The translations under genes were made by a program, and so were the position numbers. From an uncultured SAR86 cluster bacterium (GTDB taxonomy: Bacteria; Pseudomonadota; Gammaproteobacteria; Magnimaribacterales; D2472): a DNA stretch of 64,000 nt. Numbering within the stretch: the first letter of the stretch is position 1; every line of letters begins with the position of its first letter. Positions 34,994 to 63,513 of this stretch are shown piece by piece. The notes beneath the pieces were generated by a model. It saw only the letters and a list, made by a program, of their open reading frames with translations. It made no database searches and was not told the origin of the DNA. Where the stretch lies: assembly GCA_902599315.1 (NCBI GenBank), contig CACKEY010000004.1, positions 1-64,000 of the forward strand, in the 5' to 3' direction.

Positions 34994-35948
34994 GCTGACT
35001 CATAAGAAAATCTCGAATAGCTGCACCAACCATTGAAGGTTCAGCATAAGTAATATCATGCTTGCCTCCTTCTAAAATCAGTAATTCAGATTGAGGAATA
35101 TAATTTGTCAGCTCTTTACGTCCCATAAATGGAACAACTTCATCCTCAGTTCCCCAAATAGTCAGGATTGGTTTATTTAAATTTCCGACATCACCAAACA
35201 TTTCCTGAGTGCTGAAAAAATTAAAATTACGAGCAGTTGATAGTAAAGCATTGATGAAACCTTTATATTGCATTTGTATTTCCACTTTTTTTATAAACTC
35301 TTTTTTTGATAATGCTAAAGGATCTTCTCTTGGAGGCTCACTCTTCTCCTCATTACCCTGAAAAACCAGACTTGATCCAAAAACATTTAGGAGCCACTCT
35401 CCTACTAAAGGTTTCATAATCCACCAATCCTTTGTTGGATTTTCAACCATAAAACCTGCAGGAGCAATCAAAGAAATGCTTTCAACCATGTCAGGAAATT
35501 CACTGGTAAAGTGACCTACTACAGGACCGCCCATTGAGTAACCAACCAAATGCACTGATTCAGAAATTTTTTGAGAATCCAATAACTCTTTAAGAGATTG
35601 CACAAAAACATCCCTAGTATATTTAATCCTTGGTCTCTCAGAATATCCTCGACCATAGTGATCAAACACAAGGACCGAGTAGCCCGCATCTAATAAAAAG
35701 CCTTTCATTCCATCCCAAACAAAATGAGGAGTTGAAAATCCATGGACTAAAACAACCGTTTCATTATTTGAAACTTTTTCATCAGGATAATGCCAACGAT
35801 AGTAAAGATTGCCTTCTTTTAAGGACACCCATGCACCTGCTGTGGGAATATCAGATGCCGTTAATGTCTTAAGTTTATTCATTTGCACAAAATATGGGAG
35901 ACCCAATAGTAAAAGAATAATCGAAAGAGTTACTAGAATTTTTGTCAC
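34977..35948 (-). CDS. Membrane-anchored alpha/beta hydrolase
   Basis: 323 residues. Residues 4-22 form a single hydrophobic segment without a signal-peptidase site, so anchoring with the enzyme outside the cytoplasm is likely. Oxyanion HGFSTPHFVWDG, nucleophile elbow GYSMGG, acid in GTEDEVVP and His in GGKHDITYA make a complete catalytic triad. Substrate unknown; its place in an operon with GlpD, an FGGY kinase and an alkyl-DHAP-synthase-like protein makes a lipid or glycerol ester reasonable. The GTG start overlaps the kinase stop (GTGA). It overlaps valS by 17 bp at the 3' end. Confidence 0.85.
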   Translation of the reverse strand: MTKILVTLSIILLLLGLPYFVQMNKLKTLTASDIPTAGAWVSLKEGNLYYRWHYPDEKVSNNETVVLVHGFSTPHFVWDGMKGFLLDAGYSVLVFDHYGRGYSERPRIKYTRDVFVQSLKELLDSQKISESVHLVGYSMGGPVVGHFTSEFPDMVESISLIAPAGFMVENPTKDWWIMKPLVGEWLLNVFGSSLVFQGNEEKSEPPREDPLALSKKEFIKKVEIQMQYKGFINALLSTARNFNFFSTQEMFGDVGNLNKPILTIWGTEDEVVPFMGRKELTNYIPQSELLILEGGKHDITYAEPSMVGAAIRDFLMSQPKAEA

Positions 35949-37495
35949 AAATTTCCTAATACTGATTTAATTGCCTCATAGCTAGGTTTAAGGTTGCCAT
36001 ACATTTTTTTGTATACCTTATGGTACAAATCATTATAAATTTCTTTATTTGTATCTATTGGATCAAACCTATCACCTGCGTGAGTCATTTTTTCAACTGC
36101 ATAAGTAAAATCTTGATATAAACCAATTCCAACAGCACTCGCAATAGCAGCACCTAAAGAAGATGTTTCAAATGTGTGTGGACGAAAAACGGTCATACCA
36201 AATATATCTGCGGTTATTTGCATAACTTCATCACTTTGAGATCCACCTCCTGATACAACTAATCGAGAAATAGATTTTTTGGTCCGTTTTTCAAGAAGTT
36301 CTTTGCTCTCCCTTAAAGCATATGTTAAACCTTCAATCATGGCGCGATAAAGATGTGCCCTAGTATGATCTTCATTAAATCCAATAATTGCCCCTCTTGT
36401 TTCAGGACCATCTCCATTAGAAGGCGACCAATAAGGTTGTAGCATTAATCCATCAGAACCCGGTGGAACTTTGGCTAGTAACTCATCAAATAAAGTTTCA
36501 GGTTGAAGATTTTTTTCTTTTGCTAATTGCTCTTCTTGAAGTCCAAACTCTTTTTTAAACCAGCTCACCATCCAATATCCTCGTTGAATCATCATCTCAA
36601 TATTAAATGTGTTAGGTATCACCCCAGGATATGCTGGATAAAAAGGTATCGCCTCAAGATATTTATCAGAAGTGATATTCAATGTAGCAAGGCTGCCATA
36701 ACTCAAACTACCTGTCTCATTATCAATACATCCAGTGCCTAAAACCTCACAGGCTTTATCTGAACCACAAGCAATTAAAGGAAGTCCTTCTGGGATTCCG
36801 GTTTGTTCAGCTGCTGCTTCAGTGATTTCACCTAGCACAGATCCTGCAGGTAAAACTTCAGGCAGCATTTCAGATCGAATTGGCATGGCTCGCCATTTCC
36901 AATCTTTCTGATCAGCCCACTCTTGTGTCTTATAATCAAATGGAATAAACCCCACAGTACTCGCAACAGCATCTTTGTAATTACCAGTGAGTTTATAATT
37001 GTGATAACCAGATAAAAGTAGGAATTTATGAACTTGCTTCCAAATCTCAGGCTCATTTTGTTGAATCCAATTAGCTTCAGCCTCAGCATGCATTAAATCA
37101 ACCAATGGCTTGGCTCCAATAATACCCATAATGACTGACTCTAACTTTCCTAATTTTGGTTTAGTTTGCACTTGGCGTTGATCTAGCCAAGTGATAGCAG
37201 GTCGCAGTGGTTGATTATCTATACCCATTGGAACTATAGTTGCTCGCTGTGTAGTTACTGAAACAGCTGCAATTAATTCCTTTGATATTGATAATTTTGG
37301 CCACAATTCCAAGCATGCTTGACAAAGCGAATTCCAAAAATACTCAGCATTTTGCTCTGCCCATCCTTTTTGATTAGAGAAATATGGCTCAATTTCAATT
37401 TTACTTTTTGCAATAAGTTGGCCCTGTCCATCAAAAACCATAGCTCTAACACTCTGAGTTCCGTTATCAATACTTAAAAAATATTTTCCATTCAT
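35945..37495 (-). CDS. FGGY-family carbohydrate kinase
   Basis: 516 residues with the two actin-like domains of the FGGY fold: FLSIDNGTQSVRAMVFD at the N-terminus (phosphate 1), TTQRATIVPM and the C-terminal GGGSQSDEVMQITADIFG. The family phosphorylates sugars and polyols such as glycerol, xylulose or ribulose. Substrate cannot be assigned from sequence. Its position 12 bp after GlpD argues for glycerol, dihydroxyacetone or a related polyol, which would give glycerol 3-phosphate or DHAP. It is not a typical GlpK. No Shine-Dalgarno stands out. Confidence 0.85.
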   Translation of the reverse strand: MNGKYFLSIDNGTQSVRAMVFDGQGQLIAKSKIEIEPYFSNQKGWAEQNAEYFWNSLCQACLELWPKLSISKELIAAVSVTTQRATIVPMGIDNQPLRPAITWLDQRQVQTKPKLGKLESVIMGIIGAKPLVDLMHAEAEANWIQQNEPEIWKQVHKFLLLSGYHNYKLTGNYKDAVASTVGFIPFDYKTQEWADQKDWKWRAMPIRSEMLPEVLPAGSVLGEITEAAAEQTGIPEGLPLIACGSDKACEVLGTGCIDNETGSLSYGSLATLNITSDKYLEAIPFYPAYPGVIPNTFNIEMMIQRGYWMVSWFKKEFGLQEEQLAKEKNLQPETLFDELLAKVPPGSDGLMLQPYWSPSNGDGPETRGAIIGFNEDHTRAHLYRAMIEGLTYALRESKELLEKRTKKSISRLVVSGGGSQSDEVMQITADIFGMTVFRPHTFETSSLGAAIASAVGIGLYQDFTYAVEKMTHAGDRFDPIDTNKEIYNDLYHKVYKKMYGNLKPSYEAIKSVLGNL

Positions 37496-37507
37496 GACAG
37501 ACAGATT

Positions 37508-39100
37508 CTAAGTGTTGATAGGAAGGCTATAGTGCTTTTTCCAAATTGTTTCATAGCGACTTACTTCTTTTTGCCATCGCTCCTCATCCCAGCTCTCATA
37601 ACTTAAGAAAATTTCTTTCAAAGCTGGGTACAATTCAGAGCCTCCATTAGAAAGACACATACCTAGACGAGTTCTTCTTAACAAAAGATCATCAAGATGC
37701 TCAACAGCCTCATTTTTTACTGCCCATCGACATTCAGCTAAAGAAAATTCTGTCTCGCCTAGATTGTTTTTTTCAACCTGAGAACTTTCTTTTAAAATTT
37801 CAATTGCTTTCATACCGTATCGTCCCAACAAACGTTGTCCCCAATTTCTATTTTTTGGAGTTAATGACTGCGGAGTGATTTCGGGTGTTTGAAACATTCT
37901 ATCATCAACAAAATCTTTAGCTTTTGGTAAGCTTTCCTTAGCTGCAGCTAAAACATCCAATGCAATCAATCTAAAAGTAGTAAGTTTCCCACCGCTTACA
38001 GTAATTAACCCATTATCAGACCATACAGCATGATCTCTACGCTCTTTAGAAGGATCTTTGTTTTTCTTTGAACCAATTACAGGTCTTACTCCTGCCCATG
38101 TTGACAAGATATCACTTGACTTCAACGGATTATCGGGAAATTGGCTGTTGTATGCTTTTAATAAATAATCTACCTCCAGATCAGAGATGCTGGCCTCTAT
38201 ATCCAAATCCTCATCATGATCTAAATCTGTGGTGCCAATGACAGTTGTTCCCTCCCATGGATAAACATAAATACCTCGCTTGTCTTCAACATGGAAAAAT
38301 GTCAACACGTCGCTAATTGGACATAAGGATTTTGGAATAATTATGTGGCTGCCTCGAAGAGGTCTTATACGTTTTTCTTTATTAACAATATTTCTCAGTC
38401 GATCTGCCCAAGCACCTGTTGCATTAATAACAACCCGAGAATTTAATTCAATAAAATCAGAATAATCATCAGCTTTAATTCTTACTCCAGAAACTTTGCC
38501 ATCTGTTAATAAAAGATTATCTACTTTTGTATAATTTAGAGCATATCCTCCATCATCAATACTATCTTGCAAAACACGAAGTACCAAACGAGAATCGTCA
38601 ACCATGGCATCAGTGAAACAATTTGCTCCATTAAGTTTATTATCATCTAATCCATGAAAACGTTTCTGTAACTCCTCATTATTAAAGTATTTATTATCCC
38701 GAGTACCTGCAAAAAAATCATAAATAGTAAGAATTACTTTCATTACAAATCGACCTGGAAATAAACCTTTTCTAAAAGTTAAATAAAAAGATATTGGATC
38801 CACCAATCCTGGGGCCTCGTTTAAAAGACGTTGCCGCTCCTGAACAGATTCCTTTGTAAGTTTATAATCTCCAGATGCAAGGTAACGAAGGCCTCCGTGA
38901 ACCATTTTTGAGGACCTGCTGGAGGTACCCCACGAAAAATCTTGTTGCTCCAGCAACAGTGCTTTGAAACCTCTTCGCCTTGCTTCCCTAAGAATTCCCG
39001 CACCTGTGATCCCCCCTCCAATAACAATAATATCCCAATCTAAATGATCACCTTTTTGCATTTCTGAAAGAAGTTCTTTGCGGTTAGTAAATCCAGTCAT
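37508..39100 (-). CDS. glpD: FAD-dependent glycerol-3-phosphate dehydrogenase (GlpD/GlpA family)
   Basis: Oxidises glycerol 3-phosphate to DHAP, passing electrons to quinone at the membrane. 530 residues. The FAD-binding VIGGGITGAGILREARRRG lies near residue 26, then SSRSSKMVHGGLRYL, the central GTTDLDHDEDLDIEAS and the C-terminal SGGKLTTFR. The C-terminal helical domain (about 420-520) is the usual DAO_C. It lies 6 bp after the alkyl-DHAP-synthase-like gene and 12 bp before the kinase, so DHAP chemistry is probably the common theme. Confidence 0.9.
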   Translation of the reverse strand: MTGFTNRKELLSEMQKGDHLDWDIIVIGGGITGAGILREARRRGFKALLLEQQDFSWGTSSRSSKMVHGGLRYLASGDYKLTKESVQERQRLLNEAPGLVDPISFYLTFRKGLFPGRFVMKVILTIYDFFAGTRDNKYFNNEELQKRFHGLDDNKLNGANCFTDAMVDDSRLVLRVLQDSIDDGGYALNYTKVDNLLLTDGKVSGVRIKADDYSDFIELNSRVVINATGAWADRLRNIVNKEKRIRPLRGSHIIIPKSLCPISDVLTFFHVEDKRGIYVYPWEGTTVIGTTDLDHDEDLDIEASISDLEVDYLLKAYNSQFPDNPLKSSDILSTWAGVRPVIGSKKNKDPSKERRDHAVWSDNGLITVSGGKLTTFRLIALDVLAAAKESLPKAKDFVDDRMFQTPEITPQSLTPKNRNWGQRLLGRYGMKAIEILKESSQVEKNNLGETEFSLAECRWAVKNEAVEHLDDLLLRRTRLGMCLSNGGSELYPALKEIFLSYESWDEERWQKEVSRYETIWKKHYSLPINT

Positions 39101-39106
39101 AATATT

Positions 39107-40720
39107 TTAATCATTTTCAGGTAATAATTTTCCTGGATTCATTTGTCCATGAGGATCAAATTGCTGACATAAGCTATTAATTGCAGCAATACCAAACTCT
39201 CCCTTTTCTGCTGTTAGGTAGTTTTTGTGATCGCTGCCAACACCATGCTGGTGACTAATGGTGCCGCCATGAGCAACAATCTGATCAGCGCCAGCTTTTT
39301 TTAATTTCATCCATCTATTCTTTCCTAACTCAAAGCTTTCACCTATGCGAAACAAATAGGTAGTGTAAATACTCGATCCCTGACCATATACATGAGATAA
39401 ATGCGTATAAGCATGAACTTGCTCACCTTCATCATCCAAGGCCATTCGAATTGCTTCTTCTATATTTTCTGCAGCTTCAGAAACTTTTGACCAATCAACT
39501 GCCGTCTCCATGGTGTCAACTATATACCCCTCTGCACCAAGAGGGTCACGAAGATACGGAGCACGGAATCGACCGTGCACCCAGTTCTCTCCAAGACCAG
39601 ACTGATCTACAAAACCACCTAGGGCAGCACAATGATCGATTGCAAGTTCATATACAGTTTCGCAATGACGAGCTGAGCCAGTTACTCCAAATGTCATCAT
39701 CACTTTTCCTTCACCAATACCCTTTTCAGATAAAGATTTCTCCAATGCAATCACCCCACTGCTATCACTGCCGGCACCCATATATAATAGACTTGTTGTT
39801 TCAAGTGGGTTACTTAATCGAACCATAGACAATGCAACTCGCTGTTGAATCAATTCCCTTGCAGCATTAATACCAATTTGCCAAGAAGGAAAGAAGACTA
39901 CTTGGAATTTTTCTTTCTCAGGCATAGGCGTTATCCGTACAGTAACTTCAGTAATAATACCAATACGGCCCTCGGAGCCAAGAATCATCTCACGAATATC
40001 AGGACCGGCTGAAGATGCTGGGATGGTAGGAATTGTCATGGTGCCATTAAAAGTTTCGATAATCCCTCCAGCAAACATGTTTTCAATGCGGCCATAATGA
40101 AGAGACTGTTGACCGCTTGATCGACTTGCCACCCATCCCCCTAAGGTAGATAGCTCCCAAGATTGTGGAAAGTGACCTAATGTGTAGCCATGTTTTTTCA
40201 GTGTTTCCTCTACAACAGGACCTGGAGTTCCGGCTCCAAAGGTAGCCAGTTGACTTTCAGTATCAATGCTCAATAAGGAACTCATCTTTCCCATATCTAT
40301 TGTTAGTATTGGTCTGTCGCTCTTCATAGGATTTATGTGACCAACAACTGATGTTCCGCCACCATAAGGAATAACAACTAAGTTATTCTCTTTACTATAA
40401 GCAAGAAGTTCTCTTACCTGCTCTGCAGATTCTGGAAATGCAACGCCATCAGGAAATGTATCAACATTGCCACTATGCATATCTAACCAATCTGGCAAAC
40501 TCTGACCTCGCGCATGTCGAACTCGTGTTTCCGGATCGGTTTTAATTAAAGAATGGTCATCAAGACGAGATGCGGGTACTTTAGAAATTACCTCTTTTAA
40601 GGTTGCCTGATTAAGTGAAGTTCCTGGTCCTACCAAAGCCTCTAATAACGCTCGCAGTCCATCGCTAAGCTCCATAGTTAGCTCACTATTTTCATTTCCC
40701 CATCCATTCCACAAACGCAT
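39107..40720 (-). CDS. FAD-binding oxidase related to alkyl-DHAP synthase
   Basis: 537 residues, VAO-type flavoprotein (FAD_binding_4 plus FAD-oxidase C domain). It begins MRLWNGWGNEN, closely like the MKWNGWG entry of alkylglycerone-phosphate synthases (AGPS). It has the FAD loop PYGGGTSVVGH at about 118-128, then STLGGWVASRSSGQQ, and near the C-terminus SHQHGVG at about 489-495, where AGPS carries a His cluster. In ether lipid synthesis AGPS swaps the acyl chain of acyl-DHAP for a fatty alcohol. Other members oxidise hydroxy acids, so function is likely rather than certain. ATG at 40720 is chosen for its GGTGA site; a GTG three codons earlier is possible. Confidence 0.82.
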   Translation of the reverse strand: MRLWNGWGNENSELTMELSDGLRALLEALVGPGTSLNQATLKEVISKVPASRLDDHSLIKTDPETRVRHARGQSLPDWLDMHSGNVDTFPDGVAFPESAEQVRELLAYSKENNLVVIPYGGGTSVVGHINPMKSDRPILTIDMGKMSSLLSIDTESQLATFGAGTPGPVVEETLKKHGYTLGHFPQSWELSTLGGWVASRSSGQQSLHYGRIENMFAGGIIETFNGTMTIPTIPASSAGPDIREMILGSEGRIGIITEVTVRITPMPEKEKFQVVFFPSWQIGINAARELIQQRVALSMVRLSNPLETTSLLYMGAGSDSSGVIALEKSLSEKGIGEGKVMMTFGVTGSARHCETVYELAIDHCAALGGFVDQSGLGENWVHGRFRAPYLRDPLGAEGYIVDTMETAVDWSKVSEAAENIEEAIRMALDDEGEQVHAYTHLSHVYGQGSSIYTTYLFRIGESFELGKNRWMKLKKAGADQIVAHGGTISHQHGVGSDHKNYLTAEKGEFGIAAINSLCQQFDPHGQMNPGKLLPEND

Positions 40721-40779
40721 TGATTTCACCAAGTCATAATTTAAATTTAATAACGCATAGCGATCTAGTTTTAAACATA

Positions 40780-40810
40780 AGTATAGCCTTTTTCGTAATC
40801 AAAAAATCAA
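40780..40810 (-). promoter_or_regulatory. Possible promoter for the AGPS-like/glpD/kinase/hydrolase unit
   Basis: Minus strand TTGATT (40805-40810), 19-bp spacer, TATACT (40780-40785), about 60 nt before the ATG. The 124-bp gap from 40721 to 40844 holds nothing else recognised. Confidence 0.4.
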
Positions 40811-40844
40811 TGATAAATTAAGGCTTATAAAGTAATTACTTAAA

Positions 40845-41825
40845 TTATTTGCTTAATAATCCTTTTTCCTGAGCCCATTCATGAGTCATTTTCATACCCT
40901 CCTCAAATGAAATTTCAGGCCTCCATCCAAGGACACGTTCTGCTTTTTTAATTGAAAACCAACTCTTGGTTGAAAGCTGTTTTACTGTTGATGGAGAAGC
41001 TTCATTTAGATTGCCCAAAAGATCGGCTAATTTTGATGCTATGGCTGAGATTTTTAAAGCTAGCTTGGTCGAAACTACCACGGGTCTCTTTTTACCTAAC
41101 CATCGATAGTGAGGAGTGAAATAGTCTTTGGTAAACATATAACCCTCGCATGATAAATTAAAAATTTCGCCAGCTGCATCTGGATGCCTCGATGCAATTG
41201 CGATACCCCTAACTAAGTCATCAATATATATGGGTCTAAAAAATCCCTCTCCTTTTTCGGGCAACATAAACTGATTTTTAGCAATTGCTTCTAAGGGAGC
41301 AATAATCCAAGGACGGCTACCTGGGCCATATGCATCTCCTGGCCGAATAATCACTACTTCAATATCATCATTAGCCTGCTCGCTTAAGACAACATGCTCA
41401 GAAGCTAGTTTTGTCAGCACATAGCTTCCACCATCGGCATGCACAGGATGAGTCTCATCTAACTCACCCTCTGCAGAATTTCCGTAAGCAACTATTGATG
41501 AAATTTGAACGAAGCGTCTAACTTTATGCTCTTTTGCTGCTTGAATTAAGTTACGAGTTGCCAATACATTAACTTGCCACATATCGGAATCTTGCATTGC
41601 ATTAGAGACCAAAGCAGCTGTGTGAATAATCACATCACATTCTTGTAATTGTTGGCTAATTGTATCTGGCTGAGATATATCACCCTCAACAATATCATCA
41701 TCATTACCAAAGAGATCAACGCCAACAGTATCTTGACCATGATTTTGGTAATAACGCATTAATGACCCACCAATGAATCCATTAGCTCCAGTTATAAGTA
41801 TTTTTTTGATAGCTTGTTCACTCAT
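40845..41825 (-). CDS. NAD-dependent epimerase/dehydratase family protein (extended SDR)
   Basis: 326 residues. NAD(P) loop ITGANGFIGGSL, the HTAALVS stretch after the fourth strand, catalytic Ser in ISSIVAYG and YVLTK as the YxxxK pair. The C-terminal substrate domain (RPIYIDDLVRGIAIAS and GWRPEISFEEGM) is typical of sugar epimerases and 3-beta-hydroxysteroid dehydrogenase-like proteins. The exact substrate is unknown. It is the last gene of the unit starting at 45992, with a 31-bp gap to the SDR upstream of it. Confidence 0.85.
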   Translation of the reverse strand: MSEQAIKKILITGANGFIGGSLMRYYQNHGQDTVGVDLFGNDDDIVEGDISQPDTISQQLQECDVIIHTAALVSNAMQDSDMWQVNVLATRNLIQAAKEHKVRRFVQISSIVAYGNSAEGELDETHPVHADGGSYVLTKLASEHVVLSEQANDDIEVVIIRPGDAYGPGSRPWIIAPLEAIAKNQFMLPEKGEGFFRPIYIDDLVRGIAIASRHPDAAGEIFNLSCEGYMFTKDYFTPHYRWLGKKRPVVVSTKLALKISAIASKLADLLGNLNEASPSTVKQLSTKSWFSIKKAERVLGWRPEISFEEGMKMTHEWAQEKGLLSK

Positions 41826-41856
41826 ATGGAAACCTTAGCAAAATAATTCTTACTTT

Positions 41857-42651
41857 TCAGTCCATACTCTTGCGGTAGAAAGAACCAAAAATCCTTGTTA
41901 CTAATGATTTTGAAAAAAGACGAGTAATGATGGTGGTGAACTTATTAGCAAGACCAGGAACTACAATATCTTTACCTGCAAAACATGCTTTTATACCAAT
42001 CTCAGCAACATCTTTAGCCGACATCATCATGCTTGATGGAATTCGAAGAGTGGCGCCTTGCTCAGGATTGTTCATCATTTTTGTAGCTGTATAGCCAGGG
42101 CATAACGCTGTTACTTGAACCCCGCTATTTGCAGCAACCATTTCATTTGATAATGCTTGAGAAAACGACACAGCATATGCTTTTGATGCAGCGTAAACAT
42201 TCTGATTTGGAATAGCCATCCATCCAGCTAATGAAGCAACATTAAGTATATGTCCACTACCCTGCAATGCCATCTGATTTGCAAAAAGATGAGTCAAGCT
42301 AGTGAGAGCCATGATATTGACTGAAATTATTGCTTCCTGCTTTTCAAGACTCAGTTTAGTAAAAAATCCATTTTGCAAAAGGCCTGCATTATTTACTAAG
42401 AAATCTACTTGTGATCCATTTGCTTCAACAGTTTGGAAAAGGTCTTGTGCTGCATTTTCCTTGGACAAATCTGCAACAATCACAGAGGAATTCACTTCAA
42501 ATTCATTCCTTATCCTGTCAGCTAATTGATTAAGTTTATCTTCACCCCGTGCAACAAGAATAAGATCATATCCGAGGCTGGCTAAAATCTTTACAAATTC
42601 GGCTCCGATTCCTTCAGAAGCTCCTGTAACTAATGCAGTTTTATTCGACAT
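41857..42651 (-). CDS. Classical short-chain dehydrogenase/reductase
   Basis: 264 residues. TGASEGIG cofactor loop, NNAG, catalytic Ser in NVASLAGW and YAASK. An Arg follows the second strand (VARGEDKLNQLADRI), favouring NADP(H). The C-terminal tail (ITRLFSKSLVTRIFGSFYRK) is long, basic and hydrophobic, as in membrane-associated reductases such as the acyl-DHAP reductase Ayr1 or DltE-like proteins. Given the AGPS-like gene nearby, acyl- or alkyl-DHAP reduction is a sensible hypothesis. AAGGA precedes the ATG. It lies 11 bp after the DUF3604 gene. Confidence 0.87.
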   Translation of the reverse strand: MSNKTALVTGASEGIGAEFVKILASLGYDLILVARGEDKLNQLADRIRNEFEVNSSVIVADLSKENAAQDLFQTVEANGSQVDFLVNNAGLLQNGFFTKLSLEKQEAIISVNIMALTSLTHLFANQMALQGSGHILNVASLAGWMAIPNQNVYAASKAYAVSFSQALSNEMVAANSGVQVTALCPGYTATKMMNNPEQGATLRIPSSMMMSAKDVAEIGIKACFAGKDIVVPGLANKFTTIITRLFSKSLVTRIFGSFYRKSMD

Positions 42652-42661
42652 AACATGTTCC

Positions 42662-44641
42662 TTAATTATTTTTTTTCAGCCAAATTGGTGATGACCAAGC
42701 TCTCTCTTGAATTGTAACTGGTATATCTGATCTAGGTTTCTCACCAGCTCTAATGGAGTCCCACGTTGACCATCTACAAACAGGATTTTCAATAATTCGA
42801 GCGTAATAAAATGCATCTTGATTAACCTTAAATTCTGGATCCTGCCATAAGACTTTCATTTCCTTATCTCCTGAATCTGCACTAATCGAGCAATCACTTA
42901 AATCAACCCAAGCTTTATTTTCTGGACAACGATGAGTCTCTTGATCAACAATCAATCCATCGGAACATGCAACATCAAAAACTTTTTCTTTATGCTTTCC
43001 ATCTTCTAACCATCCTTTAATGATTTGAGCTCTTTGCAATGGCGCCCCAACAATATCAGCAAGCGCCCATACTAAAAAGGTTGGATTTTTATTTTCTTTA
43101 TTATTGAGGGTTCCGCCCATAGGAATGTTGTTTGCATATGCATCTTGAATAAGAGAAAGGTCATTTAGTGATGAATTTTCTAAATCATAACCCGCAAAGA
43201 ATCTCACTTTTATTCTTGGACCGCTTGTTGCAAAAGTTTCTTTGCGTCTAAAAGCATCATAAATAGCTTCACGAGTGTTTTCTTCTGCCCAGACACCGGC
43301 AAGACCAGATGCAGAAAAATGTATCAGTCTCTCGCTTGCAGCAAGATAGTTTTTTCCATCAACCTCGGCGATTGTATTTGGTCTTAAAAATTTTAAAAAA
43401 GTTCCATAAAATCGATTAAACGGAATTGAGCCTCTTAACTCAGCAGTGCCATCTAAAAGACCTACTTTTGAGAAAAAGACTTCTTCACTATCTGAAGGCC
43501 CTCCAACATGTGAGTCACTTGATCCTATTAAACCAAACTTGTATGGATTGGTAAGACCGCTTTCCTCCAAAAATAAACCCTTAAGATATGCATCTCTTAC
43601 GTAACTACCACTTAAATTAGAAATATTTTTCTCTTGGTCCACACCAGTTTTTACTTCGAAAGCTGCCCATTCATCATTTTTTGACAACAATGGATGAGTT
43701 TCCGAGGTTCCTTTAACTTGAGTAATTTCAACCAGTGGCTCATTTAATGAACGATTTTTAGAATAAGCCTCATCGATTGGACCTCCATTGTAGTTATCCA
43801 GTGAGAAAGCAACTCCACCTGAAATATTTGTATTGTGAGGAATGGCTAAGCTTTCAACTCCATCAGATCTGATAAGATTCATCCAATCCCATAATTTCTC
43901 TGGATTTGGGCTATCGGCTCTTGTAAAGATTTTTTGGGGGAGATTTCTTGTATCTTTAAATATAACGTTTCGATGTAAGTACTTGTTATAAAGGTCTAAT
44001 CCAGGAGTATATTCATATGCAGCAAATGTAGTGAATGTTCCAGGAATATAAGCATTGTCTGCAGCTTCGATGGTTTGTTGCCATACTGATCTTTCGATTT
44101 TTTCTATTAGCGAGCCATCAATTGATCCATTTTCTAGACCCTCGGTAACTTTTTTATAAAAGGGTCTGAAAATATTTCCTCTTTTAATCAAGGAAATAAT
44201 GCCGCTATCCACGGATTCATTCAGATTGTGTAAGGGTTTGGTAAATTCATATTTTGAGAACTCAGAAGTCGTATCTGCTGCAACTTTCATTAATCCCATA
44301 AAAATTCCATGATCAGTTACAGCATAGAAATCTAAAGGTCTGCTAAGTTGAATCAAATATCCGCTTGGATGGACTATTGCATTGCCTCGAGCATATTTGT
44401 AAGCATCTTTTGGAGTGTTAATAGTTCCAAAAGTGTAAGCGTCAAATGAATTTCCAGTGTGAACATGTAGATCACCAAAATAAGCATTTTTATTTGGATT
44501 AGGTAAAGGCCTAACGATATTGAGTTTTTCCACTGCGGGCTTAACTTCTTCAGGTTTAATTACATTTTTTGAGTTACTTGAATCAGAACATGCTGCTACT
44601 AGAAAAAAACACAGAATAAAATAAATTGCTTTGATTTTCAT
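42662..44641 (-). CDS. DUF3604 lipoprotein, PHP-like metallohydrolase (copy A)
   Basis: 659 residues from the ATG at 44641. The N-terminus MKIKAIYFILCFFLVAAC is a lipoprotein signal with Cys18 as the lipidated residue. The DUF3604 body holds motifs that resemble PHP phosphoesterases: GDLHVHT (His59, His61), TDHG (Asp110, His111), IPHN and GSSDSH. A C-terminal region with four cysteines (ACSDG, RCPE, DCS, VCRWSTWD) closes with TIQERAWSSPIW. Function of DUF3604 is not established; predicted to be a periplasmic or outer-membrane metal-dependent hydrolase. Upstream nine codons are open, but the later ATG gives the signal peptide. It follows the DsbA-like fusion by 7 bp. Confidence 0.88.
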   Translation of the reverse strand: MKIKAIYFILCFFLVAACSDSSNSKNVIKPEEVKPAVEKLNIVRPLPNPNKNAYFGDLHVHTGNSFDAYTFGTINTPKDAYKYARGNAIVHPSGYLIQLSRPLDFYAVTDHGIFMGLMKVAADTTSEFSKYEFTKPLHNLNESVDSGIISLIKRGNIFRPFYKKVTEGLENGSIDGSLIEKIERSVWQQTIEAADNAYIPGTFTTFAAYEYTPGLDLYNKYLHRNVIFKDTRNLPQKIFTRADSPNPEKLWDWMNLIRSDGVESLAIPHNTNISGGVAFSLDNYNGGPIDEAYSKNRSLNEPLVEITQVKGTSETHPLLSKNDEWAAFEVKTGVDQEKNISNLSGSYVRDAYLKGLFLEESGLTNPYKFGLIGSSDSHVGGPSDSEEVFFSKVGLLDGTAELRGSIPFNRFYGTFLKFLRPNTIAEVDGKNYLAASERLIHFSASGLAGVWAEENTREAIYDAFRRKETFATSGPRIKVRFFAGYDLENSSLNDLSLIQDAYANNIPMGGTLNNKENKNPTFLVWALADIVGAPLQRAQIIKGWLEDGKHKEKVFDVACSDGLIVDQETHRCPENKAWVDLSDCSISADSGDKEMKVLWQDPEFKVNQDAFYYARIIENPVCRWSTWDSIRAGEKPRSDIPVTIQERAWSSPIWLKKNN

Positions 44642-44648
44642 AATAGTT

Positions 44649-45992
44649 TTATGACAAACGCCTTGCAATCTCCTCTTTTAATAACCAAATTCTATCCTGA
44701 CCCCAGACATAAAATGGATCAGTGCCATCTTCATTGGTAATTTTAAAACTTGGAACACCCCAACAATTTCCTGAGTACATATCCTTAACATTATCATTGA
44801 GTATTTTTTTCCAGTGTTTTGTATTTAGATCTTTGCTTATCATTGTCCAATCAAGACCTAAATCAATAACCAGTTCTTCTAAAAAATTATCGTCGCCAAT
44901 ATTAATTCCATCTTGAAAGGAAGCTTTTAGCAAAGCCTCAATATATTCAAAGCCCTTTCCAGCCTCATCAATTGCTGGAAATAATGAATATGACTTTCTT
45001 GCTGGTTTTCCAATTGGAGAATGAATGGTTTTCATCTCATGTGCATATTTTCTTCCCTCTCTTGCAGCATCAGAGAGAATATATTTTGCTTTATTGGTTG
45101 GTATATTCATCATCCTCATAAGCATAGGTAAAACTGGTTTCATATGTAAATTAATAGGATAGTCGTCTCGAATCTCTCTTATTCTTTTTGTACTAACAAA
45201 GGTATAAGGACTATTTAACGAGGGATAGTAATAAAGGTTAACTTTTTTTTCAGAAAGTAGTGTTTTGGGAGCTTTTAGTTTTAAGGTGAAGATTTCATTT
45301 TTTTCAGATTTTTTTCTTGCACCAAGCTCAGTCAGTCTTTCTTCTAAATATGGAAGTCGATCTAAGCCCCAATAAAGTTCTTTTTCATAATAAAAAGCTG
45401 AACCAAAATAATAACCTTTTCCATTTCTAATTTCGTTGCCATTGTTTAACTTTTCCTTAATTTGGCCTGATGTCGCAAAGTAGGTGGAAGAAATAGCATC
45501 AAGTTTTTTAGAATCTCCACTCCACAGAGCAAAACTTACTTGGGTAGCTATATCCACAAAATTTTGTTCGTCAACTGCTGACAAAATAGAGTTAGCTATA
45601 ACGACGAGCTCTCTAGCTGGATAGGATTTTGCTGGAAATTCAATGTCATAAAATGGGGCAATTCGTTGGACATCTTGAAGACAGTAATAATTGTATAAAG
45701 TCGGTTCATGCAGTGCCTCGAAACTTTCTTCACCAACCAATACTGGCTTCAACTCAATATCAAATGATGCTTGAAGCTTATTAATTGAATGAATCGTTAG
45801 ATGCGAATAAGGATCATCAACTTTATGAAAATATAAAACTTCATGAGGCCTTTGGTCCTTTTGTCTCGAAGCTTCTACTTTTGCTCTAGTATCTTTAAAA
45901 ATTTCATAACTGGAAAATGTATTCATTATTTTATTTCGTAAGTTTGCACCTAACGTTCGCCTTGCCATAAAATTTCTGAAATATTTAATCAT
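44649..45992 (-). CDS. Tandem DsbA/HCCA-isomerase-like thioredoxin-fold protein
   Basis: 447 residues with two copies of the kappa-class GST/DsbA-like fold. Copy one spans about 52-220 (YFHKVDDPYSHLT to WGLDRL) and copy two about 251-447 (YYYPSLNSPYTFVS to WGQDRI). The closing W-G-x-D-R motif is typical of 2-hydroxychromene-2-carboxylate isomerases. Neither copy has CxxC. Only the second keeps the cis-Pro loop (GVPSF, 412-416), so the first may be structural. No signal peptide is seen, so it is probably cytosolic. It heads a unit into DUF3604, SDR and epimerase genes. A glutathione-dependent isomerase or transferase role is inferred. Confidence 0.8.
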   Translation of the reverse strand: MIKYFRNFMARRTLGANLRNKIMNTFSSYEIFKDTRAKVEASRQKDQRPHEVLYFHKVDDPYSHLTIHSINKLQASFDIELKPVLVGEESFEALHEPTLYNYYCLQDVQRIAPFYDIEFPAKSYPARELVVIANSILSAVDEQNFVDIATQVSFALWSGDSKKLDAISSTYFATSGQIKEKLNNGNEIRNGKGYYFGSAFYYEKELYWGLDRLPYLEERLTELGARKKSEKNEIFTLKLKAPKTLLSEKKVNLYYYPSLNSPYTFVSTKRIREIRDDYPINLHMKPVLPMLMRMMNIPTNKAKYILSDAAREGRKYAHEMKTIHSPIGKPARKSYSLFPAIDEAGKGFEYIEALLKASFQDGINIGDDNFLEELVIDLGLDWTMISKDLNTKHWKKILNDNVKDMYSGNCWGVPSFKITNEDGTDPFYVWGQDRIWLLKEEIARRLS

Positions 45993-46057
45993 TTTAAGAT
46001 TTTTCTCTAAATTTCTAAAAACCTAGTATAAGCATTCTTGCATTTTTAGTCCTACAA

Positions 46058-46085
46058 TTGACATAATAATTGGGCTTCATAAATA
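46058..46085 (+). promoter_or_regulatory. Possible promoter for the plus-strand DUF3604 gene
   Basis: Perfect -35 TTGACA (46058-46063) followed after 16 bp by a weak TAAATA (46080-46085) in the 96-bp divergent gap. On the other strand TATACT (about 46024-46029) is a candidate -10 for the DsbA-like fusion. Confidence 0.35.
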
Positions 46086-46088
46086 TAA

Positions 46089-48185
46089 ATGGTGGGAAAA
46101 ATGAAACTTAGCAAATCTTCTATTGGATTAATTATTGTCTCCTTTGTGTTTTATCTATATGCAACTGACTCCTTCAGTATATTCCAGAGAGATTCGGCTT
46201 TAGAGATAGTTGATTTCTCAATCGAAAATTCTACAGTCAATGTTGATATTCCATCCAATCCTTACAGAAATCCGTACTATGGTGATTTGCACGTTCATAC
46301 AAAATATTCATTTGATGCTTATATTTTTGGAGTAACTGCAACTCCATATGATGCATACAGATTTGCCACTGGTGAGGCAGTTAAACATCCATTGGGTTTT
46401 GATATGCAATTGAAAGAGCCATTGGATTTTTATGCAGTGACTGATCATGGTTTTTATATGGGGATGATAGAAAACTATGCTGATACTTCATCAAAGATGT
46501 CTAAGAATGAGTGGACAAAACCTATTCACAATATAAATAGACCTGAGAATGTAACTGTTGCTTCAACTGGAGAGCGAGCTGATTTATTTAGTTCTGTGTT
46601 AAGTCGAGAAATTATAAATAAACCCTATCCTTGGTGGCATCCAAACTTCTTAGGAGCATGGCTAACAAATAATATTCAGCTTGCTTTAACCTCATTTGAT
46701 TATGATGTTCACAAGTCTGCATGGGCAGATGTAGCGAAAGCCGCTGAAGAATTCAATGATCCGGGAAATTTCACAACCTTCATTGGTTATGAGTATACGA
46801 CCTCAACAGAAGTAGAAGGCGGTAATTTGCATCGAAATGTTATTTTTAATTCTTCCAATGCTCCAATTAGGCCTTGGACAAGAATTGATTCTCTTAACCC
46901 AGAAGATCTTTGGACATGGATGGACAGCTTAAGAGACAATGGCGTTGATTCTTTGGCTATGCCTCACAATAGCAATGGCTCAAATGGTCAAATGTTTGAG
47001 GTAGAGACATTTAGAGGAAATCCTATAAGTAAAGAGTATTCAGAAAAGAGAATGAGAAATGAGCCTGTTGTTGAAATGACTCAGGTCAAAGGAACATCCG
47101 ACACTCATCCCTTACTCTCTCCGGATGATGAATGGGCTGATTTTGAAATCATGGATAAAAGAGTTGGTAGCAGGCCACCAACTTATAGCATGCCACAAGG
47201 GGGCTATGTAAGGGATGCTTTTCTAAGAGGTTTAACTTTAGAGTGGGAAGGCCGAGGTAACCCATATAAATTTGGTTTAATAGGTTCTAGTGATACCCAT
47301 ACTGGAGCAGGCGCTTTCGATGAAAATAATTATTGGTCTAAAGTTGGTGTTCTTGATGGTACAGATATGGGAAGAGGAAGCGTACCTCTATCACAGGATC
47401 GAATTGATCAACTCACTCAATATTCAATAGACTTCAATCAGCCAGTAAGCACAAAAGAAATTGAAGGCAAAACTTATGCAGATGTCGGCTTTGATCAATG
47501 GGGTGCATCAGGATTGGCAGTAGCTTGGGCAGAAGAAAATACTCGAGATTCTATTTTTCAAGCATTTAAAAGAAAAGAAACATTTGCAACAACAGGAACT
47601 AGAATAGCAGTAAGGTTCTTTGCTGGCTTTGATATGAAATCAATTGATTTGAATTCTGAAGATATGGTTAAAAATGCATATGCAAAAGGGGTTACCATGG
47701 GCGCTGATTTATTCAGTCAAGCTAATCAGACTCCTCAATTTTTAGTATGGGCTCAACGGGATAAATTAGGGGCACCTCTTCAAAGGGTTCAAATTATCAA
47801 AGGGTGGGTTGAAACTGCCTCTGGTACTCCAAAAGAAAAGATTTATGATGTTGCATGTTCAGATGGCTTTGCAGCAGATCCTGTAACTAATCGCTGTCCT
47901 GATAATGGAGCAAGAGTAAATATTAATGATTGCTCTATTTCCAATGGTGTAGGAGCAGGAGAGCTCAAAACTACTTGGGAAGATCCAGATTTTGATCCAA
48001 CCGTAAAGGCTTTTTACTATGTTCGAGTTCTAGAAAATCCGACATGCAGGTGGTCTACTTGGGATGCATTGAAAGCCGGAGTAAAACCGAGGCCCGATCT
48101 GCATAAGACAATTCAAGAGCGCGCGTGGTCCTCTCCAATTTGGTATATACCTGATTCGAGCGATTTAGAGATAATCCCGTTATAA
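46089..48185 (+). CDS. DUF3604 exported/anchored protein, PHP-like metallohydrolase (copy B)
   Basis: 698 residues. An N-terminal hydrophobic helix (about 10-27) acts as signal anchor or uncleaved signal; no lipobox. It keeps the same motif set as copy A: GDLHVHT (His68, His70), TDHG (Asp119, His120), MPHN, GSSDTH. The C-terminal four-cysteine module (ACSDG, RCPD, DCS, TCRWSTWD) is shared. It has extra inserts around residues 160-200 and 355-370 compared with copy A. Start could be the ATG at 46101, which has GGTGGGA before it. It is followed by a parvulin and HupE, likely one operon. Confidence 0.88.
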   Translation: MVGKMKLSKSSIGLIIVSFVFYLYATDSFSIFQRDSALEIVDFSIENSTVNVDIPSNPYRNPYYGDLHVHTKYSFDAYIFGVTATPYDAYRFATGEAVKHPLGFDMQLKEPLDFYAVTDHGFYMGMIENYADTSSKMSKNEWTKPIHNINRPENVTVASTGERADLFSSVLSREIINKPYPWWHPNFLGAWLTNNIQLALTSFDYDVHKSAWADVAKAAEEFNDPGNFTTFIGYEYTTSTEVEGGNLHRNVIFNSSNAPIRPWTRIDSLNPEDLWTWMDSLRDNGVDSLAMPHNSNGSNGQMFEVETFRGNPISKEYSEKRMRNEPVVEMTQVKGTSDTHPLLSPDDEWADFEIMDKRVGSRPPTYSMPQGGYVRDAFLRGLTLEWEGRGNPYKFGLIGSSDTHTGAGAFDENNYWSKVGVLDGTDMGRGSVPLSQDRIDQLTQYSIDFNQPVSTKEIEGKTYADVGFDQWGASGLAVAWAEENTRDSIFQAFKRKETFATTGTRIAVRFFAGFDMKSIDLNSEDMVKNAYAKGVTMGADLFSQANQTPQFLVWAQRDKLGAPLQRVQIIKGWVETASGTPKEKIYDVACSDGFAADPVTNRCPDNGARVNINDCSISNGVGAGELKTTWEDPDFDPTVKAFYYVRVLENPTCRWSTWDALKAGVKPRPDLHKTIQERAWSSPIWYIPDSSDLEIIPL

Positions 48186-48200
48186 AGTTTAGGATTTGCA

Positions 48201-49001
48201 GTGAGTCTCAGGATAATTGTATTTTTTTTAATTGGCTTACTAATTTTCATACTTGATGTTGCGTTTAATTCTGAACAAGACTCAAAAGATATTTATATTT
48301 CAGACCAAGAATTAACTAGTTTGCTTTCGGCATGGCAGTCACAAGTTGGAAGACCTCCAAATGATGAAGAAATCGTAAATATTATAAATAACTTTGTTCA
48401 AGAGGAGATTTTATATAGAGAGGCATTGCTTTTAAATTTAGACGAGGAAGATCGAATTATTAAAAGAAGATTGGCGCAAAAAATTACTTTCTTGAAACAA
48501 GAAACTGTTCCAGAAGATCCATCTCAAGAAGAATTAAAAGGATTTTTTGAACAAAATAAAGATAACTACTATGTCCCTGCAACCTATTCGTTTTCTCATC
48601 ACTATTTTTCAAAAGAATCTAGCGCAAAAGAAAGAGCAACCAAAGCTTTTTACGATTATCAAACTAATGGAGTTGAATTAAAGGGCGATCCATTTTTTCT
48701 AGGAAAAAACTTTTATCAGAATAGTGCAAATGAAATTAAAAAAAATTTTGGAGAACTATTTTTCTCTACTATTAAAAATCTTTCTATAAATGAGTGGTCT
48801 GGACCACATGAATCTACATTTGGATATCACATAATAATATTGAAAGAAGTTAAAACTGGATTTTCGCCCCCTCTTGAAAAGGTCCTAATAAAAGTTCAGC
48901 AAGATTTTCTTTCACAGGCTCAGGATAAGGCTATTGCAAAATATATTAATGAAATAAGATCTCAATATAGGGTCATTATCAATCCAGATTATAAGTTTTA
49001 A
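48201..49001 (+). CDS. Parvulin-type peptidyl-prolyl isomerase
   Basis: 266 residues with an N-terminal signal anchor (about 5-20), a SurA/PrsA-like helical segment (about 30-95) and a PpiC-type rotamase region (about 115-235, ending WSGPHESTFGYHIIILKEV). The FGYH near the end of the rotamase domain is typical. The body of the domain is shortened and diverged, so isomerase activity is uncertain. It would act in the periplasm on folding of exported proteins, possibly the DUF3604 partner upstream. GTG start at 48201, 15 bp after that gene. Its TAA overlaps the HupE ATG. Confidence 0.8.
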   Translation: MSLRIIVFFLIGLLIFILDVAFNSEQDSKDIYISDQELTSLLSAWQSQVGRPPNDEEIVNIINNFVQEEILYREALLLNLDEEDRIIKRRLAQKITFLKQETVPEDPSQEELKGFFEQNKDNYYVPATYSFSHHYFSKESSAKERATKAFYDYQTNGVELKGDPFFLGKNFYQNSANEIKKNFGELFFSTIKNLSINEWSGPHESTFGYHIIILKEVKTGFSPPLEKVLIKVQQDFLSQAQDKAIAKYINEIRSQYRVIINPDYKF

Positions 49002-49954
49002 TGATTTACAAGCTTGCTAAAACATTAGTCATTCTTGTTTGTTCAACTGCATTATTCTCTCATGAGTTTAATCCGGCCCACTTAGTTGTGGATGAGCTTG
49101 CTGATAATGAATATCAAGTGAGTTGGATGTATCCAATAAAAAACATTGGCGCAAGAGCAGAAGTTTTTTTTCCAGATAATTGCAAAAGAGAGAGTCAACT
49201 GCCTAGTCAAAAGGGAAAATATTTGGTCGAAAGAATATCCCTCGATTGTGAAAGCTCTCTAAAAGGCCAAATAATTTCTGTAAACAATTTAAGTGTGCTC
49301 ACAGATGCATTGATAACAATTACCCATTCTAACGGAGAGGTGTTTGAAGGCCTTATGAACCTTAAAAGATCATCGATAGAGATTCCTTTTCAAAAGCAAG
49401 TTTATCCAATGGGATATTTCACTCTAGGCATTGATCATCTAATGAGTGGAAATGATCATATCCTTTTCATCTTAGGACTACTTTTTTTAATTTCTGGTTT
49501 TTTCAACGCAGTAAAAACAATCACTGCATTTACCCTTGCACATAGTATTACCCTAGGTTTATCAGTATTTGAACTAGTCTCGCTACCGCAAGCAACTGTA
49601 GAGGCAATAATTGCACTTACTATCATTTACCTAGGTTTAGAGGTCAGTGAAAGTAAAAAATATAAATCTACACCTTGGCTTGTTGCTTTTGGCTTTGGAT
49701 TATTGCATGGACTGGGTTTTGCTAATGCCCTCACTGGTATTGGTATTGGCAATGAACAGCTGATACTTTCTTTACTATTCTTTAACCTGGGCATTGAAGC
49801 AGGTCAGCTTTTGTTGGTTCCTATATTTGGATCAGTTATCTGGCTTTCGCAAAAACTTAACTTTTATAAACAATCAGCTACTTTTACATCGTTAATTTTA
49901 GGTGGCATGGGCTTTTTCTGGCTGATCGATAGAGTAAGTAGAATATTAATATAA
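49001..49954 (+). CDS. HupE/UreJ-2 family membrane protein
   Basis: 317 residues. A signal segment (about 5-20) is followed by SHEFNPAHLVV, the normal mature start of this family, and an extracytoplasmic domain to about residue 135. Five or six helices then carry the His-rich motifs GIDHLMSGNDHILFILG, TLAHSITL and LLHGLGFANAL. HupE/UreJ proteins are linked to nickel or cobalt uptake, but this long subfamily is uncharacterised and often sits next to DUF3604 and PPIase genes in my recollection. Last gene of the plus-strand unit; 16 bp from the convergent oxidoreductase gene. Confidence 0.87.
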   Translation: MIYKLAKTLVILVCSTALFSHEFNPAHLVVDELADNEYQVSWMYPIKNIGARAEVFFPDNCKRESQLPSQKGKYLVERISLDCESSLKGQIISVNNLSVLTDALITITHSNGEVFEGLMNLKRSSIEIPFQKQVYPMGYFTLGIDHLMSGNDHILFILGLLFLISGFFNAVKTITAFTLAHSITLGLSVFELVSLPQATVEAIIALTIIYLGLEVSESKKYKSTPWLVAFGFGLLHGLGFANALTGIGIGNEQLILSLLFFNLGIEAGQLLLVPIFGSVIWLSQKLNFYKQSATFTSLILGGMGFFWLIDRVSRILI

Positions 49955-49970
49955 GATCAGAATTTAAGAA

Positions 49971-50939
49971 TTAAAAATTACTTAATCTCTTTTCAATAAT
50001 GCTATCAGCCTCACTCATGATGCCATCGATTAGTTCTTGAACTGTTGGTATATCATTTACCAAGCCCGCAACCATTCCACAAGACCAAGCACCAGCCTCC
50101 ATAGTTCCTTCATGCATAATCTTTGGATAAACTCCAGCAACCTCATCAGCAATATCTTGGAAAGTAAGTTGATCCCCTAAGGCATTTTCCTTTTCCATAA
50201 GACGCTCTACTGCTTCATTATTAAGAACCCTTTCGGTGTTTCTTAATGAGCGCATAATTAACCTAGTATCCAATTCAGAAGCATTAACAATTGAATCTTT
50301 AACATTTTGATGCACTGGCGCTTCTTGAGTTGCTATAAATCTAGTACCCATATTCATGCCTTCTGCTCCAAGAGCCATGGCCGCAACTAAACTTCTTGCA
50401 TCAGCCATCCCCCCTGAGGCAACAAAAGGAATTTCAAGTTCGTCAGCTGCGCGAGGTAAAAGAATAAAATTAGGAATATCATCTTCACCAGGATGACCGC
50501 CGCATTCAAAACCATCAACCGACACAGCATCACATCCTATTGATTGTGCTTTTAATGAATGTCTTACCGAGGTGCACTTATGAATAATTTTTATTCCTGC
50601 ATCCTTTAAAGCAGGCAAATATTCAGCAGGATTTCTTCCAGCTGTTTCAACTATGGGAACATCTCCACCAATAATTACATCTACCAATCCAGGATAATCT
50701 GGAGGCGTTAATGAAGGTAAAAATGTAAGATTCACAGCAAAGGGTTTGTCGGTCATCTCCTTGCATCGAGCTATCTCATTTGCAAGCTTTTCAGGCGTTC
50801 CTTGTGTTAGACCCGTTATAGTTCCAAGGCCCCCTGCATTTGATACTGCTGCGGCTAACTCAGCAAATCCTACATGATGCATTCCGCCCTGTATAATAGG
50901 ATGCTCTATACCAAATAACTCTGTAATTTTTGTTTTCAT
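49971..50939 (-). CDS. Nitronate monooxygenase-like flavoprotein (His-containing)
   Basis: 322 residues, FMN-binding TIM barrel. PIIQGGMHHVGFAELAAAVSNAGGLG is the N-terminal signature (residues 14-39). Catalytic His149 lies in ECGGHPGED, followed by ASGGMADARSLVAAMALGAEG and the FMN phosphate region MGTRFIAT. Members oxidise nitronates or act as quinone or enoyl reductases; precise substrate unknown. AGGAG is 6 nt before the ATG. It is the last gene of the long minus-strand unit from 61479. Confidence 0.88.
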   Translation of the reverse strand: MKTKITELFGIEHPIIQGGMHHVGFAELAAAVSNAGGLGTITGLTQGTPEKLANEIARCKEMTDKPFAVNLTFLPSLTPPDYPGLVDVIIGGDVPIVETAGRNPAEYLPALKDAGIKIIHKCTSVRHSLKAQSIGCDAVSVDGFECGGHPGEDDIPNFILLPRAADELEIPFVASGGMADARSLVAAMALGAEGMNMGTRFIATQEAPVHQNVKDSIVNASELDTRLIMRSLRNTERVLNNEAVERLMEKENALGDQLTFQDIADEVAGVYPKIMHEGTMEAGAWSCGMVAGLVNDIPTVQELIDGIMSEADSIIEKRLSNF

Positions 50940-62640: not shown

Positions 62641-63513
62641 CTAATGACGAAGCTCGCAAACAATTTCGTTATAAAATTTTTGCATGCCTTCTATCTTTTG
62701 CTCCAAAGGAGCATCATTCATAATTCCGTATAACATCCAAGGATAAGTTGTCATGGTTGTGACACCTAAATCTTTCATCTTCTTGAAGCCATCCTTGCTA
62801 AAGGCATCCCAACAAGTAAAACAAATATACTCATAGTTTTTCTTATCTGGAAACTCTTTTCTTTTTAAGTTTACTTTGCTCATTAATTCTTCTAGCTCAC
62901 TTAAACTGTGCATATCTGAAATCCATCCATCATGACTTGCAGCTCTTTTTATTGCTGGTTCTGAAAAACCTCCCACATAAATAGGTATATCATTCTTTGG
63001 AGCAGGAAGCATTTCTAATTTTTTAAAGTTAAAAAATTTCCCATTGAAATCTACCATCTTCCCAGACCAAAGTAATTTCATAATCTCAAGCATTTCATCC
63101 GCTCTTGCGCCTCTTCGCCTAAATTCTTGTCCACCTGCCTCAAATTCCTCTGGCATCCAGCCCATGCCAACACCAAGATCAAATCTGCCATTGGAAACTG
63201 CATCGAGAGTTGAGACCTCTTTTGCAACCCTCAGTGGATTCCTTGCCGGGAGAACATATACGCTAGTATAAAATCTGATGTTTTTAGTTGCTCCAGCTAA
63301 AAAAGATAGAGTGCTAATAGGATCAGGCCAATCGGTACCCTGCTCCCATCTTACACTTCCATCATCAGTGTATGGATATGGTACAGAAAATGTTTCTGGG
63401 TGGATTAAATGATCCGAGACTGCAAGAAAATCATAACCAATTTCATCTGCAGCAATCCCCAATGGCTTAATTTCATCCATTGGTAAAATTGATAAAGGTA
63501 TTGCAAATTTCAT
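62641..63513 (-). CDS. LLM-class flavin/F420-dependent oxidoreductase
   Basis: 290 residues, luciferase-like TIM barrel. Family pattern: GYDFLAVSDHL, IRFYTSVYVLPARNPLRVAKE, LGVGMGWMPEEFEAGGQ and KNDIPIYVGGFSEPAIKRAA. Such proteins are usually named F420-dependent in actinobacteria, but gammaproteobacterial members may use FMN instead; the cofactor cannot be fixed from sequence. Substrate unknown. Overlaps the HupE/UreJ gene by 4 bp (ATGA), so the two are coupled. It lies 54 bp upstream of astA. Confidence 0.87.
   Translation of the reverse strand: MKFAIPLSILPMDEIKPLGIAADEIGYDFLAVSDHLIHPETFSVPYPYTDDGSVRWEQGTDWPDPISTLSFLAGATKNIRFYTSVYVLPARNPLRVAKEVSTLDAVSNGRFDLGVGMGWMPEEFEAGGQEFRRRGARADEMLEIMKLLWSGKMVDFNGKFFNFKKLEMLPAPKNDIPIYVGGFSEPAIKRAASHDGWISDMHSLSELEELMSKVNLKRKEFPDKKNYEYICFTCWDAFSKDGFKKMKDLGVTTMTTYPWMLYGIMNDAPLEQKIEGMQKFYNEIVCELRH

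Follow-up and report, generated by a model that had tools for sequence, protein, structure and literature searches.

A DUF3604-parvulin-HupE gene trio from a SAR86 cluster bacterium as a candidate module for a predicted exported PHP-type metallohydrolase

In hydrogenase and urease accessory systems a metal permease, HupE or UreJ, is encoded beside the metalloenzyme. Among exported enzymes of the PHP superfamily, Sb-PDE of Sphingobium sp. TCM1 is a phosphodiesterase of 441 residues, a member of PF02811, which binds Zn and probably has an essential disulfide (PMC5460133). The CehA/McbA family metallohydrolases are carbamate and ester hydrolases with important histidine residues (PMC8292978). HupE proteins are described as importers; the Ang-1 domain of the anglerase-HupE proteins binds Cu and Ni via an N-terminal histidine, and these recently described proteins have been suggested to capture metals for import (PMC12537917). 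Here we describe a stretch of 64,000 nucleotides (the window, C4:1-64000 of a 1.44-Mb draft genome) from an uncultured SAR86 cluster bacterium, in which genes for a DUF3604 protein, a parvulin and a HupE permease follow one another on the plus strand (46089-49954). We propose, with a probability of roughly 0.6, that these three genes (the trio) form one functional module, a PHP hydrolase with partners for its folding and metal supply. A second DUF3604 gene lies nearby on the minus strand, and the two proteins are referred to as DUF3604 A (trio) and DUF3604 B. Every gene named in the original prediction, which was made from the DNA letters, is present in the open reading frame (ORF) list and matches its family in a Pfam profile search (Table 1), and the nearest relatives of the window's proteins are from SAR86 cluster bacteria.

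Both DUF3604 proteins cover PF12228 nearly end to end (730.6 and 750.8 bits against a gathering score of 20.4; positions 1-590 and 2-591 of 591), and the four motifs originally read as a PHP-like metal site (GDLHVHT, TDHG, PHN and SSDxH) are all seen in both. The ligand-type residues of DUF3604 A (H68, H70, D119, H120, E235, H248, H293, D402 and H404) are invariant in 104-106 of 106 homologues, and the conservation of the motifs is far above chance. TrpH-type PHP phosphoesterases have their ligands in the identical order (H6, H8, D37, H38, E63, H74, H194, D251 and H253), such that the two families are colinear over HxH, (T)DH, E, H, H and DxH. The catalytic domain of DUF3604 A (residues 57-506) was modelled from 68 sequences with a predicted local distance difference test score (pLDDT) of 90.8 and a predicted template-modelling score (pTM) of 0.92. 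The six best matches to this model in a Foldseek search of the PDB are all PHP-type proteins with template-modelling (TM) scores of 0.35-0.44; BVU_3505 (3e38) is the best, at E 1.7e-3 and a probability of 1.00, and RNase AM (7ug9), 3e0f/3o0f and 2yb1 are among the others. Profile-profile alignment with hhalign gave E 2.6e-4 to the TrpH-type PHP family and E 1.5e-4 to CehA/McbA-like domains, with motifs I-II aligned. The NCBIfam CehA/McbA family (NF038032) matches 11 of 17 DUF3604 members weakly, and the window protein scores 18 bits against the curated cut-off of 80. Neither single-sequence nor profile searches of the PDB returned a solved relative of DUF3604, and the Pfam PHP model does not match it.

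Because of the fold matches, the invariant ligands in PHP order and the weak profile matches, we assign DUF3604 to the PHP superfamily, most likely as a divergent, exported branch. The notion of a PHP-like metal enzyme, first drawn from the motifs, is thus supported. Of the two outcomes named beforehand as refuting the original reading, a fold whose four motifs do not cluster around a metal site and a lack of linkage outside close relatives, neither was seen, the clustering being judged indirectly. It had also been proposed that one DUF3604 protein is a lipoprotein and the other anchored, and this agrees with the lipobox of DUF3604 B and the N-terminal hydrophobic anchor of DUF3604 A. As modelled, DUF3604 A is predicted to be an extracytoplasmic, membrane-tethered metallohydrolase, and it is a large two-domain protein that probably has a disulfide.

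The parvulin and the HupE/UreJ membrane protein assigned to the same plus-strand unit are both readily recognized, the former by PF13145 (46.9 bits, cut-off 27) and the latter by PF13795 (146 bits, gathering cut-off 24.5). The parvulin has an N-terminal hydrophobic segment (residues 1-25), and its profile matches the solved parvulins Cell-binding factor 2 (2.5e-10), HP_0175, SurA and PrsA. HupE has the conserved His/Asp transmembrane motifs, with H146, D152, H153, H181, H236 and E266 invariant, and in the alignment its N-terminal domain carries a near-invariant pair of cysteines. In 18 of the 20 HupE proteins aligned, a histidine is positioned at the likely signal-peptide cleavage site, as judged by eye; this N-terminal histidine, shared with the Cu/Ni-binding anglerase-HupE proteins, supports a role for HupE in metal handling.

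The neighbourhoods of DUF3604 genes were sampled in 80 loci from named genomes together with the regions around DUF3604 genes from a phylum-wide draw, and 74 loci were judgeable for the trio. Parvulin and HupE genes are beside DUF3604 in 35 of the 74, and two further loci have the parvulin without HupE. All three genes are on the same strand in 33 of the 35, the commonest order is DUF3604-parvulin-HupE, and the parvulin and HupE genes mostly overlap by 1-4 bp, as in the window. Linkage is kept despite an altered gene order in four loci (L037, L068, L109 and L121), and with DUF3604 on the opposite strand in two (L038 and L075). The hosts include SAR86, Steroidobacter gossypii, Hyphomonas oceanitis, Pacificimonas pallii and Acidobacteria metagenome-assembled genomes (MAGs; L109 and L121), within Gammaproteobacteria, Alphaproteobacteria and Acidobacteriota; with both Acidobacteria MAGs and proteobacterial hosts represented, the linkage therefore covers two phyla. 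Recurrence so far beyond close relatives sustains the proposal that parvulin and the HupE metal permease are partners of DUF3604. When neighbouring proteins were clustered, parvulin (38 loci) and HupE (35) were followed at a wide distance by short-chain dehydrogenases/reductases (SDRs; 16), acyl-CoA dehydrogenases (10) and TonB receptors (8); the last two belong, with cytochrome P450s (7) and sulfatases (6), to the rarer neighbours among 94 loci.

In a draw of 150 genomes, eight of the nine that have a full DUF3604 gene also have the parvulin-HupE pair, and in genomes of this draw that have none, the pair was not seen at any PF13795 locus inspected. No parvulin was found beside PF13795 HupE genes in about 35 inspected loci away from DUF3604, excepting a SAR86 case with a GNAT-parvulin fusion, and in a tree the HupE proteins of the trio form one side of a branch, with all other HupE proteins on the other. 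Pairwise distances are correlated between parvulin and HupE (r 0.85), DUF3604 and HupE (r 0.41), and DUF3604 and parvulin (r 0.38), with 0 of 2000 permutations as high. The presence of the pair switches 16 times on a DUF3604 tree of 82 rows, and its presence is therefore not that of one inherited block. We also observed that a nitronate-monooxygenase-like gene adjoins the trio in the window (49971-50939, minus strand), and that such a gene directly precedes DUF3604 in a distantly related genome from the phylum (G141; L043 11695-12669).

Taking export or anchoring, the PHP-type fold with its ligands, the identity of the helpers and their conserved linkage as established from sequences and models, we infer DUF3604 catalysis, its dependence on both helpers, the metal and the substrate. 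DUF3604 A, tethered to the membrane outside the cytoplasm, would cleave a phospho- or carboxyl-ester or a carbamate bond of an organic substrate. The parvulin, itself anchored in the membrane, would assist its folding outside the cytoplasm, and the HupE permease, with an ectodomain that probably begins with histidine, would handle the transition metal that DUF3604 A needs. We tentatively consider it possible that the trio is a metallocentre-maturation system, in which this ectodomain gives or conditions periplasmic metal for the PHP enzyme and parvulin couples metal insertion to folding.

Several observations weigh against a module of this type. The Foldseek support for a PHP fold is moderate, and since no match has an E-value below 1e-3 we regard the placement as strong but not final; the hhalign alignment to PHP is confined to motifs I-II; and the full-length DUF3604 model gave weak beta-sandwich matches only, which is why the catalytic domain was folded alone. 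In 39 of the 74 judgeable loci, about half, the parvulin-HupE pair does not adjoin DUF3604, so that not every DUF3604 gene needs the helpers next to it. No solved chain matches the HupE ectodomain in sequence, HupE import as described is directed to the cytoplasm whereas DUF3604 sits outside, and no parvulin or HupE partner is reported for Sb-PDE.

The described direction of HupE transport would suit a scavenging unit, in which DUF3604 cuts an extracellular substrate, HupE imports the freed metal ion or small product and so serves the cell, and parvulin folds either protein. Metal uptake is also what has been proposed for anglerase-HupE (PMC12537917), and TonB receptors, acyl-CoA dehydrogenases, P450s and sulfatases are sometimes near DUF3604 loci. 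However, no catabolic gene approaches the frequency of parvulin and HupE (35-38 loci), and the tighter co-variation of these two with each other than of either with DUF3604 suits both readings; we find the scavenging explanation rather doubtful. It is unlikely, in our estimate, that parvulin and HupE are themselves the true module, with parvulin folding or gating the HupE ectodomain and DUF3604 joining them often, but as an optional client or passenger. The excess of the parvulin-HupE correlation over that of DUF3604 with HupE points this way, as do a second such pair without DUF3604 in the window's genome (C4:63510-65988) and the switching of the DUF3604 gene in side and strand, but the approximately 35 inspected PF13795 loci away from DUF3604 have no parvulin, the SAR86 GNAT-parvulin case aside.

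Table 1. Coordinates of the trio and of neighbouring features in the window.
Feature	Position	Strand	Evidence and remarks
DUF3604 protein A, 698 aa, core enzyme of the trio	46089..48185	+	PF12228 E 1.3e-225; membrane-anchored; C-terminal beta domain
Parvulin (PpiC/SurA/PrsA-type peptidyl-prolyl isomerase, PPIase), membrane-anchored	48201..49001	+	PF13145 E 5.8e-12; 15 bp after DUF3604 A gene
HupE/UreJ_2 permease with periplasmic N-terminal domain	49001..49954	+	PF13795 E 9.4e-43; 1 bp overlap with parvulin gene
DUF3604 protein B, lipoprotein	42662..44668	-	PF12228 E 1.7e-219; lipobox; tree position
Tandem DsbA-fold protein, partner of DUF3604 B in some SAR86	44649..45992	-	PF01323 E 2.5e-15
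96-bp intergenic region between two divergent transcription units	45993..46088		
SDR 1, downstream of DUF3604 B	41857..42651	-	PF00106 E 8e-49
SDR/epimerase 2, downstream of SDR 1	40845..41825	-	PF01370 E 2.5e-36
FAD-linked oxidase	39107-40732	-	
GlpD-like dehydrogenase	37508-39100	-	
FGGY kinase	35945-37495	-	
Alpha/beta hydrolase	34977-35948	-	

The two DUF3604 genes had been placed back to back across 96 bp. A gap of this length is present, but it is flanked by the DsbA-like gene (start 45992, minus strand) and the DUF3604 A gene (start 46089), and the spacing between the two DUF3604 genes is about 1.4 kb. A shared promoter in the gap was considered and rejected, promoter scan matches being no more numerous than in shuffles. 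The tandem DsbA-like protein and two SDRs are encoded as anticipated, but the DsbA-like protein has DPYS and SPYT motifs in place of CxxC, and no hydrophobic N-terminus or signal peptide. It was rejected as a periplasmic disulfide foldase for these reasons, and its sequence resembles the HCCA-isomerase/kappa-glutathione transferase type. The ORF for DUF3604 B at 44668 begins with TTG, and an ATG at 44641, which gives MKIKAIYFILCFFLVAAC, is the likelier start; its lipobox is VAAC, with the cysteine at position 27 as counted in the TTG-started ORF. In the tree DUF3604 A and B are in different subfamilies, B in a separate SAR86 subfamily, and a recent tandem duplication giving rise to the A/B pair was rejected accordingly.

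These data are difficult to reconcile with the divergent two-copy locus acting as one system, as was originally envisaged, and we consider it very improbable that DUF3604 B, the DsbA-like protein and the SDRs belong with the trio to a single exported-hydrolase system with folding and redox helpers. The divergent layout is kept in genome G174 and is indicated by match coordinates in two more (G158 and G196), and at locus L176 both DUF3604 genes and the parvulin-HupE pair lie in tandem in a single run. Against this, no trio adjoins the closest kin of DUF3604 B (L094, L097, L098 and L100), the DsbA-like/DUF3604 pair is separate from the trio in L094 and L098, the units lie on separate contigs in AG-464-M18 (L051 and L098), and the DsbA-like protein is without a redox motif and an export signal. 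The DsbA-like/DUF3604 B pair is common to L094, L098 and L174, an extra glutathione transferase gene is located between the two units in L174, and the divergent layout is a local feature of some SAR86. On balance we favour the interpretation that the minus-strand DUF3604/DsbA-like/SDR run is a unit separate from the trio and merely adjacent to it in this genus. It is part of an eight-gene minus-strand run (34977-45992) with gaps of no more than 112 bp, which to judge from gene content only is probably an operon for catabolism, possibly of a glycerol-containing compound. A neighbourhood that arose by chance or hitch-hiking, with no functional coupling, to which the roughly half of DUF3604 genes that have no pair might point, we regard as refuted by the survey, given a trio that occurs in two phyla with gene overlaps and a linkage that survives rearrangement, and 16 label changes on the tree, so that it is not one inherited block.

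Of 61 genomes sampled from the SAR86-type family, 51 have DUF3604, and the genome containing the window carries four full copies plus two that are divergent. Since a streamlined genome of ~1.4 Mb keeps many copies, DUF3604 is probably important for what the abundant SAR86 ocean bacteria degrade. Two very divergent DUF3604-like proteins of 743 and 720 aa, encoded on contig C1 of the window's own genome (L048 7022-9253 and L049 7215-9377), are matched by the family only over a stretch at the N-terminus and over approximately its positions 320-414. Elsewhere (G031; L050 8036-9022, minus strand) one ORF fuses a DUF3604 N-terminus in frame to a HupE C-terminus, and this is apparently a relic of a deletion within a former DUF3604-parvulin-HupE operon. 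In G180 and G185, of the same genus and the same family, several DUF3604 copies have stop codons and are either pseudogenes or the result of assembly frame errors. The second HupE gene of the window (63510-64000, minus strand) belongs to the pair at C4:63510-65988 (L033 3511-5989), in which it lies beside a fusion (433 aa) of an ElaA-like GNAT acetyltransferase with a parvulin behind it, and a luciferase-like oxidoreductase comes next. This GNAT-parvulin fusion is full-length in 14 of 41 SAR86-family genomes, and in most of the others the GNAT part alone is matched.

All members of the trio are from known families, and what is new, so far as the literature was searched, is their combination and the placement of DUF3604 within PHP; no published description of either was found in the open-access papers searched, some of them judged by title, and DUF3604 itself was met there as a table entry in one paper. 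With the PHP placement an uncharacterised family gains a chemistry that can be tested, and the recurring parvulin and HupE partners provide a testable model for the folding and metallation of an exported metalloenzyme. PHP proteins (TrpH/RNase AM, BVU_3505 3e38 and the AMP-binding 2yb1) are the best structural matches to DUF3604 and have the same HxH, TDH, E, H, H, DxH order, but DUF3604 is exported and has a catalytic domain of ~450 residues that contains long insertions, as well as an additional beta domain at the C-terminus. Sb-PDE is similarly an exported enzyme of the PHP superfamily, although a member of PF02811 rather than DUF3604 (PMC5460133). CehA/McbA (NF038032) has weak profile matches to DUF3604, which for the window protein extend over motifs I-II, but the score of that protein is far under the family cut-off. 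The Ang-1 anglerase-HupE proteins share with the trio HupE a PF13795 permease, an exported N-terminal domain that in the trio HupE is likely to begin with histidine, and occurrence in Pseudomonadota; on the other hand, the trio ectodomain has no sequence match to a solved chain, and the neighbours given for Ang-1 genes are DUF4198, indigoidine A-like and PfkB genes, with neither DUF3604 nor PPIase among them (PMC12537917). The trio resembles the hydrogenase and urease accessory systems in pairing a metal permease gene with the gene for a predicted metalloenzyme, and departs from them in that its enzyme is predicted to be extracytoplasmic and its second helper is a parvulin. A metallocentre-maturation role, if true, would make the trio a periplasmic counterpart of those systems.

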